Of a DNA stretch of 64,000 nucleotides, positions 1,366 through 30,371 are shown one piece after another; position 1 is the first letter of the stretch, and each line of letters opens with the position of its first letter. The position numbers were made by a program, and so were the translations under genes. The notes under the pieces were generated by a model that saw nothing but the letters and a program-made list of their open reading frames with translations, searched no databases and was not told the DNA's origin. This DNA is from Nitrososphaerota archaeon (GTDB lineage: Archaea > Thermoproteota > Nitrososphaeria > Nitrososphaerales > Gagatemarchaeaceae). The stretch spans positions 1-64,000 of the forward strand of contig DAHVLJ010000008.1 of assembly GCA_027320425.1 (NCBI GenBank). Direction: 5' to 3'.

Positions 1366-3303
1366 ATGCTCACCCCAGTTCAGATGGATAGGGTAAGGAT
1401 AATCGCCCTCAGGGAGGACATTTCGCAGATCCTCCATTCTCTACACGAGGCAGGCGTCATGCAGCTTGAACAGGTGGAGAGGAGCCCGTCAGAAGGTTTC
1501 GGGGAACCCACCCCGCCCGAACTGCAGCGCAGGGTGGCGGACGAGGCGTTCAGGTTCGAAGGTCTCGTGGCCGCGCTCCCGCCCGTCACGGTCGATGGTC
1601 AGCGTCACTTCGAGGGCATAAACGACGTCCTCGCACAGGCAGAAGCGCTAACGATCGACGGCGAAGTCAAGGGTCTGAAGACCGAACTGGAGTCAGTCGA
1701 CGTCAGGCTCGCGAGAAACAAGGTCTTCCTGCAAACCCTGGGGAGGATCGCTTCCTTCAGGAAGGACCTTTCGATCTTGACGGCATCGAGCCTCGTCTCT
1801 GGATTCTACGCTATTCCGGAGGACGGGTTCTCCTCTTTCAAGGAAGAGATGCGCACCATCGCCGGCGACGCGATTGTCGAAAGCTATCACTCTGCGGAAG
1901 GGGACGTCACTGCGCTCGTGGCGATCCCGAAGTCGGCCGAAGAGCAGGCGAAACCCATCTTCGAGAAGTACAAGGCATTGAAGGCCGACCTGCCATACAA
2001 TCTGGGGACCCCTGCAGAGGCCAAGGCGAAGCTTGAGTCTGAGGACGCGGATCTGTCTCGGACGAAAGCCAAGGCGGAAGAGGGGCTCAGGGCGATATCG
2101 CGTGAGCACTACGGCGCAATCCTAGCGATAAGGGAAGCGCTCGCTATCGAGGGGCAGAGGCACGAGGCTATCGGTAAGTTGGCCCAGAGCGACAGGACGG
2201 TCCTCCTCGAGGGCTGGGTACCTCGCCCCAATGTCCCTGCATTGGAAAAGGAACTTTCAAGCGCAGCCGCTGGCAGGGTGGTCATCGTCGGAGTGAAGGG
2301 CGATTCCGAAGAAGCGCCTACCCTGATGCAGAACAGCAGCAGGATCAAGCCCTTCGAGTTCCTTGTCAGATTCTTCTCCCTCCCCAAGAGCGGTGAAATC
2401 GACCCTACCATGACCTTCTCCATAGTCTTCCCTATCTTCTTCGGGCTGATGGTCGGGGACGTAGGCTACGGCCTCGTCATCCTTCTGCTCGGGTTCTATT
2501 TCACGAGGATCGGGAGCGGCAAGACTAGCGCCAGGGCGCTCCCCCGGGCGATACGTTCCTTTGGTAGGGGGATGATGGGGAAAAGGACCCTGGGAACAAT
2601 AGGGACGATAATGATGATCGGAGGGGTCTCGGCGATGGTCTTCGGGGCCCTGTTCAACGAATACTTCGGAGCCGCGCTCCCATGGTACGGGGCTGCGCTG
2701 AACGTGGTCGGCCAGCTTCCTATCTTGCTGGTCATCACGATATTCATCGGACTGGGCCACATCACCCTCGGTTACATCTTCGGAATCTACCTTGGGGTCA
2801 AGACGGGGCACCTCAAGCATGCGATAGGGAAGATAGGCTGGCTTGGCTTCATGTGGAGCGGAACGGTGGGTCTGGTCGACTTCTTCGACAGGGGGCTCTT
2901 CCCGTCTCCCATCATTGCAGCATATGCGAGCATAGCGGCGCTCATAGGCTCGGCCGTCGTCGTCGCGGTCAGCGAGGGTCCAAGGTTCGCCATGGAGATT
3001 CCCACTCTCATGAGCCATGTCATGTCATATGCGAGGATTCTGGGGGTCCTTCTTGCTTCGGTCTTGCTCGCTTCGATCGTTGACACGAGCCTAGGGGCGA
3101 GCGTCGGCCGGGCGCCCATCACCGCGACGATCTTCGTCGCTGTCATAGCCATCATGGTCCACCTCCTGAACATCGTTCTTGGGATCTTCGAGCCGTCGAT
3201 CCAGGGGGTCAGGCTCCATTACGTCGAGTTCTACACCAAGTTCTTCGAGGGGAACGGCAAGCCGTTCTCTCCGTTCGCCGTGCGAAAGAAGTACACGAAG
3301 TAG
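1366..3303 (+). CDS. atpI: A/V-type ATP synthase subunit I
   Basis: 645 aa; soluble N-terminal half and multi-TM C-terminal half (FGLMVGDVGYGL, ARILGVLLASVLL). Confidence 0.93.
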   Translation: MLTPVQMDRVRIIALREDISQILHSLHEAGVMQLEQVERSPSEGFGEPTPPELQRRVADEAFRFEGLVAALPPVTVDGQRHFEGINDVLAQAEALTIDGEVKGLKTELESVDVRLARNKVFLQTLGRIASFRKDLSILTASSLVSGFYAIPEDGFSSFKEEMRTIAGDAIVESYHSAEGDVTALVAIPKSAEEQAKPIFEKYKALKADLPYNLGTPAEAKAKLESEDADLSRTKAKAEEGLRAISREHYGAILAIREALAIEGQRHEAIGKLAQSDRTVLLEGWVPRPNVPALEKELSSAAAGRVVIVGVKGDSEEAPTLMQNSSRIKPFEFLVRFFSLPKSGEIDPTMTFSIVFPIFFGLMVGDVGYGLVILLLGFYFTRIGSGKTSARALPRAIRSFGRGMMGKRTLGTIGTIMMIGGVSAMVFGALFNEYFGAALPWYGAALNVVGQLPILLVITIFIGLGHITLGYIFGIYLGVKTGHLKHAIGKIGWLGFMWSGTVGLVDFFDRGLFPSPIIAAYASIAALIGSAVVVAVSEGPRFAMEIPTLMSHVMSYARILGVLLASVLLASIVDTSLGASVGRAPITATIFVAVIAIMVHLLNIVLGIFEPSIQGVRLHYVEFYTKFFEGNGKPFSPFAVRKKYTK

Positions 3304-5360: not shown

Positions 5361-5399
5361 CGGGAAAGCTCTAATGGGCGACCGGACTGGCCCTGCTCA

Positions 5400-5493
5400 G
5401 CCCCGGTAGTATAGGGCCCATGAGGGCGTATAGCCCGGTCAAGTATGCTGGCCTTTCGAGTCGGCGACCCGGGTTCGAATCCCGGCCGGGGCA
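5400..5493 (+). tRNA. tRNA-Glu(UUC), interrupted by a 19-nt D-arm intron (5415..5433)
   Basis: Acceptor GCCCCGG/CCGGGGC + A73; T arm CCGGG-TTCGAAT-CCCGG; anticodon arm CTGGC-CTTTCGA-GTCGG (anticodon TTC). Removing GGCCCATGAGGGCGTATAG restores a 75-nt cloverleaf. Confidence 0.9.
5476..5493 (+). repeat. att-like direct repeat, copy 1 (3' end of tRNA-Glu)
   Basis: Exact 18-mer cgaatcccggccggggca. Confidence 0.75.
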
Positions 5494-21597: not shown

Positions 21598-21713
21598 TGC
21601 GGGGGGTGGGATTCGAACCCACGAACCCCTAAGGGACGGGATGTCTCAGGTTTCTCTTAAGTCCCGCGCTTCCAACGCCGCCTGCGATTTTGACCAGGCT
21701 CAGCAACCCCCGC
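21598..21713 (-). tRNA. tRNA-Leu(UAA) with two introns (21670..21687 and 21643..21655)
   Basis: Acceptor GCGGGGG/CCCCCGC + A73; T arm GTGGG-TTCGAAT-CCCAC; anticodon arm CGGGA-CTTAAGA-TCCCG after splicing; type II variable arm. Both insertions fold as BHB motifs. Confidence 0.88.
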
Positions 21714-30120: not shown

Positions 30121-30281
30121 GATACCCTGACGACAGGCATGACTTAATCCAATTGTATTGAAAGGAACTGTGTGCCAGTACAGCGAGCCTCGAACAACGT
30201 CATGCGCGGAAATGTAGGAGCTGGGGCGGCTCAACCGGGGCTTATGTGGCGGAACGGGGGCTTCCTCAGGCTGATTGAAAG

Positions 30282-30371
30282 CGGGCCCGGTGCGATTTGA
30301 ACGCACGACCTACAGCTCGCTCCACATTCGTGTAGGAGGCTGCCGCGCTGTCCGTACTGCGCTACGGGCCC
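30282..30371 (-). tRNA. tRNA-Arg(CCU) with 15-nt canonical intron (30318..30332)
   Basis: Acceptor GGGCCCG/CGGGCCC + G73; T arm TTCAAAT; anticodon arm GCAGC-CTCCTA[intron]A-GCTGT; CUCC/GGAG BHB helix. Confidence 0.9.

Follow-up and report, generated by a model that had tools for sequence, protein, structure and literature searches.

A short noncanonical D-loop intron in the tRNA-Glu(UUC) gene of an uncultured thaumarchaeal family

Introduction

Noncanonical tRNA introns have been catalogued in Thaumarchaeota, where the tRNAscan-SE 2.0 survey with its clade-specific model counted 107 of them (PMC8450103). In Methanopyrus kandleri both tRNA-Glu isoacceptors have an intron in the D loop, with RNA-seq reads (PMC3695527). 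Splicing endonucleases of the alpha2-beta2 type are listed for Thaumarchaeota (PMC4090602), and a lysine in the Crenarchaea-specific loop (CSL) has been tied to broad specificity of the enzyme (PMC6379350). The family UBA183/Gagatemarchaeaceae has been recorded in acidic soils and in acid mine drainage (PMC10640624, PMC10833072).

Here we describe a tRNA-Glu(UUC) gene, probably of this family, in a contig stretch of 64,000 nucleotides (the window). By computation we established the gene, its intron, the conservation of the intron helices, the orthologs among relatives, and the presence of genes for endonuclease subunits and RtcB.

Results

The tRNA-Glu(UUC) gene and its intron

The sequence at 5400-5493 was read directly from the window and was identical to that quoted in the initial annotation of this DNA. 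The gene has the following parts:

5400-5493, + strand: intron-containing tRNA-Glu(UUC) gene, without encoded CCA (inspection of the cloverleaf; about 37 genomes of the same family have orthologs)
5400-5414, + strand: exon 1, tRNA positions 1-15, GCCCCGGTAGTATAG
5415-5433, + strand: 19-nt noncanonical intron at 15/16 in the D loop, GGCCCATGAGGGCGTATAG (boundary from the L030 ortholog and relatives without the intron)
5434-5493, + strand: exon 2, tRNA positions 16-73, CCCGGTCAAGTATGCTGGCCTTTCGAGTCGGCGACCCGGGTTCGAATCCCGGCCGGGGCA
5455-5457, + strand: anticodon UUC (by inspection)
5364-5375, + strand, about -36 to -25: conserved promoter-like element GAAAGCTCTAAT, at the same spacing upstream of many same-genus orthologs

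As the initial annotation had claimed, inspection showed that excision of 5415-5433 restores a standard 75-nt tRNA-Glu(UUC), and the cloverleaf formed after excision, together with the orthologs, confirmed the 19-nt intron. The spliced form has the acceptor stem GCCCCGG/CCGGGGC, the D stem GUAU/GUAU, the anticodon stem CUGGC/GUCGG with loop CUUUCGA, the T stem CCGGG/CCCGG and discriminator A. Around the upstream element the sequence varies among same-genus orthologs, whereas the element itself is kept in many of them.

The warning that standard tRNA callers could go wrong here was well founded. ARAGORN miscalled the gene as Pro(CGG) and, with introns allowed, as Ser(GCT), and the match to the Rfam tRNA model was limited to 5428-5485 with a marginal score at the cut-off. 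Simple tRNA finders assign the wrong isotype to this gene.

The fold of the precursor

The predicted bulge-helix-bulge (BHB) fold consists of the following elements:

5409-5412, + strand: 5' strand of the central helix H, exon GUAU, also the 5' strand of the mature D stem (covariation)
5413-5415, + strand: 5' bulge AG|G; by the BHB rule, cleavage is predicted between 5414 and 5415
5416-5419, + strand: 5' strand of the inner helix h', GCCC (comparative pairing)
5424-5427, + strand: 3' strand of the inner helix h', GGGC (comparative pairing)
5428-5431, + strand: 3' strand of the central helix H, intron GUAU, replacing the 3' strand of the D stem (covariation)
5432-5434, + strand: 3' bulge AG|C; by the BHB rule, cleavage is predicted between 5433 and 5434

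As in BHB introns, a 3-nt bulge lies at the 5' splice site and is followed by the inner intron helix, the ends of exon and intron form a covarying 4-bp central helix, and excision leaves a standard tRNA. Two of the four pairs of the central helix are G.U. When the intron was shuffled, only 48 of 200,000 shuffles equalled the window intron in having four base pairs in each of the central and inner helices.

The initial annotation had described a full hBHBh' motif. The central helix, the bulges and the inner helix of that description hold, but the contiguous outer exon helix beside the 3' bulge that a strict hBHBh' motif has is lacking. The candidate outer helix, CCGG(4-7) with CCGG of the D loop, is interrupted by the unpaired U8-A9, and CCGG(4-7) are acceptor-stem bases, so that it is incompatible with a closed acceptor stem. 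The motif is for both reasons relaxed. Its best-supported parts are the central helix, the 5' bulge and the inner helix, and we read it as the HBh' form of PMC6379350.

Comparative support

So that no intron was presupposed, the 3' exon alone served as query against 101 genomes, and each recovered locus was divided into its intron or introns and exons using its exon sequences. Among 29 distinct 15/16 introns the mean number of central pairs was 3.76 out of 4, against 1.81 (sd 0.17) after shuffling, and the mean number of inner pairs was 3.28 against 0.52 (sd 0.15). Some relatives have three central pairs only (GUAA or GUAG) or two inner pairs.

A second test used 27 distinct segments from relatives, cut by position and with the hairpin loop left out. 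In these, 93.1% of the helix cells paired, compared to 79% in shuffled segments; double changes were found in 28 cells against 7.5 in the shuffles, and covariation was 0.549 against 0.262, a value reached by none of 500 shuffles. The pairing signal was much lower when the strands were slid; the sequences are related and thus not independent, to which the shuffle and slide controls are a partial answer. The central helix also switches as a pair from A-U to G-C between lineages (GTAT/GTAC and GTGT/GCAC). On these sequence comparisons the predicted BHB fold is beyond chance and its helices are conserved through complementarity; the BHB-type splicing signal proposed earlier is in this way supported by both the shuffles and the covariation.

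Splicing machinery

The initial annotation had also suggested looking for a heterotetrameric or broad-specificity splicing endonuclease, and at the level of sequence this search was positive. Two PF01974 proteins were found in G019, an assembly of the same species as the window (99.9% identity over 10 kb; contig JAKAOG010000001.1, MAG archaeon isolate YF1.bin121), and likewise in most relatives. The alpha subunit (186 aa) can be aligned along its entire sequence with that of Aeropyrum pernix (3p1z_B, E 4.8e-42) and keeps the active-site Y, H and K, and its K40 aligns opposite A. pernix K44 of the CSL. The beta subunit (241-aa frame) has no catalytic histidine. Beta was found in both G019 and the incomplete genome of the window (G000), where it was the only subunit found; alpha was seen in G019 and was not found in G000. 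RtcB is encoded as well. As expected of a host of BHB introns, which should have a broad-specificity (alpha-beta)2 or epsilon2 endonuclease, the species is by sequence predicted to encode a heteromeric enzyme of broad specificity, the subunits of which would assemble into a tetramer.

Distribution among relatives

In about 37 genomes of the window's family, including 25 of its genus, a tRNA-Glu(UUC) gene was recovered, and every such gene has an intron in the D loop; the sites are 15/16, 20b/21 or the two together. The 15/16 intron occurs alone in the window, in same-species G019, on the C9 contig of the window's bin, and in G034 and G035, and the 20b/21 intron alone in G009:C9, G012, G014, G015, G016, G018, G036 and G042. 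The majority of congeners have both introns, flanking an 8-nt exon CCCGGUCA. The 20b/21 intron keeps four central pairs in all 26 distinct sequences and its pairing covaries, while its inner helix is less regular. An intron in L100 that was first taken as this second intron proved to belong to a tRNA-Glu(CUC) gene and to lie at another position, and was left out.

Outside the family, the 15/16 intron is shared by two other families of the order, f8 (G052, G066, G075, G083, G090, G096) and f3 (G047, G063). Among the genomes searched, several other families lack it, as do the tRNA-Glu(CUC) genes that were encountered. Its length is 15-23 nt, except in G066 (L071, 231-357, - strand), where it is 51 nt long with a long extra hairpin. 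An endonuclease alpha-subunit tree made for counting gains and losses was too poorly resolved for such a count (2 of 15 branches starred). On balance we favour the view that the D loop of tRNA-Glu(UUC) in this family is a two-site intron hot spot, in which the 15/16 intron is older than the family, the 20b/21 intron is restricted to it, and each has been lost or gained separately in some species, that of the window among them. Where both are present, they may have to be removed in a set order.

Other tRNA genes and neighbouring genes

Two further tRNA genes in the window were examined. A tRNA-Leu(UAA) at 21598-21713 (- strand), missed by ARAGORN, apparently has two introns, one in the D loop, at its 3' side (about 18 nt), and one in the anticodon loop (about 13 nt). 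A tRNA-Arg(CCU) at 30281-30371 (- strand) has a 15-nt intron beside the anticodon according to ARAGORN with introns allowed, and Rfam did not report it. In G015, five tRNA-like genes are clustered within 0.7 kb (G015:C2:150895-151549).

An A/V-ATPase operon (1366-3303, + strand) adjoins the tRNA-Glu gene, and its type differs among congeners (L135-L164) at what seems an unchanged location. In G009, G012 and G015 subunit I shows 74% identity, against 53% in G053 of another family and only about 22-34% in other congeners. This pattern suggests that the operon was replaced in place. With several types among the relatives, the ATPase subunit was unsuitable as a tree marker.

tRNA genes serve as viral attachment sites. 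In a sequence search the 3' part of the tRNA-Glu gene matched integrase genes of Sulfolobus spindle-shaped viruses, which fits such a use and is uninformative about the intron.

Discussion

In our judgement it is very probable that 5400-5493 is a functional tRNA-Glu(UUC) gene, and that its precursor is interrupted at 15/16 by a short archaeal tRNA intron of the noncanonical type which is spliced by the endonuclease. Once the gene is transcribed, as we infer it is, the intron GUAU would take the place of the 3' strand of the D stem and pair with exon GUAU(10-13), and GCCC/GGGC would close the intron hairpin. The (alpha-beta)2 endonuclease would then cut at the two resulting 3-nt bulges, presumably at AG|G on the 5' side and AG|C on the 3' side, and the exons would be joined, most likely by RtcB, with ...GTATAG connected to CCCGGTCAAG. 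The freed GUAU(10-13) would finally pair with GUAU(22-25) to give the mature D arm.

It is highly unlikely that the gene is decayed or silent and that another intact tRNA-Glu(UUC) does the work, even though the window's genome is about 53% complete and its bin holds a second tRNA-Glu(UUC) on contig C9 (L062, G000:C9, 13.6 kb). That copy also bears the intron, and we rejected it as a paralog because its surroundings proved orthologous in BLAST, with about 75% DNA identity; the contig was most likely co-binned from another species of the genus. The exons of the window gene are perfectly preserved and its upstream element is conserved, and neither a further nor an intronless tRNA-Glu(UUC) was seen in G019 or in the closed genome of a congener (G005).

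Still less likely is a real intron with another splice register, or with a recognised fold other than the one drawn here. Since GTATAG is repeated, seven different 19-nt excisions from the window sequence alone yield an identical mature tRNA, and the energy minimum of the full precursor in ViennaRNA was a different fold (-45.7 kcal/mol; the BHB together with the remaining arms gave -35.1). However, ViennaRNA likewise did not predict the mature tRNA as a cloverleaf, and we therefore judged its folding of the precursor to be uninformative. The helices covary, and the splice site is fixed at 15/16 by the L030 ortholog, GTATAG|GGCCCTTGAAGGCGTACAA|TCCGG, which has no exact repeat, and by the D loops of relatives without the 15/16 intron (for example GTATAGTCCGG). 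We consider it the least likely explanation of all that the 19 nt, with GTATAG on both sides in the window, are an insertion from a GTATAG duplication, mobile or by microhomology, and no spliced intron. Almost all orthologs have an inexact repeat, the intron ending in GTACAG, GTAAAG, GTGCAG, GTACAA or GCACAA, and in other families the exon GTGTAG goes with the intron end GCACAA/G, so that complementarity is kept and identity is not; moreover, the 19 nt would break the D arm if retained. As two GUAU strands can pair by means of two G.U pairs, the intron strand that mimics the D stem happens to resemble the exon end. The repeat noted in the initial annotation is thus present at both ends, but by the orthologs it is incidental and no signature of duplication.

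We favour the spliced intron, with which this uncultured family of Thaumarchaeota has a noncanonical tRNA intron backed by covariation. In the openly readable literature we found no description of the 15/16 position in this lineage, nor, with most subscription papers and the tRNA databases outside that scope, of the double D-loop arrangement. About 25 congeners form a mosaic of presence and absence in which the gain and loss of introns could be studied.

The suggestion that the intron is notable in this background was not borne out. All recovered tRNA-Glu(UUC) genes of the family have D-loop introns, many other tRNAs of the window's genome bear introns, tRNAscan-SE 2.0 has a Thaumarchaeota model (PMC8450103), and D-loop tRNA-Glu introns are known from Methanopyrus (PMC3695527). 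Like the window intron, the BHB introns of Thaumarchaeota and Crenarchaeota (PMC8450103) are short, lie outside 37/38, and have a bulged central helix and a broad-specificity endonuclease; with up to three introns per tRNA, that set shows no essential difference from it. Methanopyrus kandleri shares the same tRNA, the same loop and a relaxed BHB (relaxed form: PMC6379350). However, it is only distantly related, its tRNA-Glu genes have the D-loop intron as their second intron, and we do not claim homology. Introns at noncanonical sites, the D arm among them, and more than one intron per gene are also found in tRNAs of Caldiarchaeum and Thermoproteales (PMC3293823, PMC4033280); the window copy has one intron, and congeners have two in one D loop. 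The intron described here is real and of an ordinary archaeal kind, a further example of a known phenomenon.
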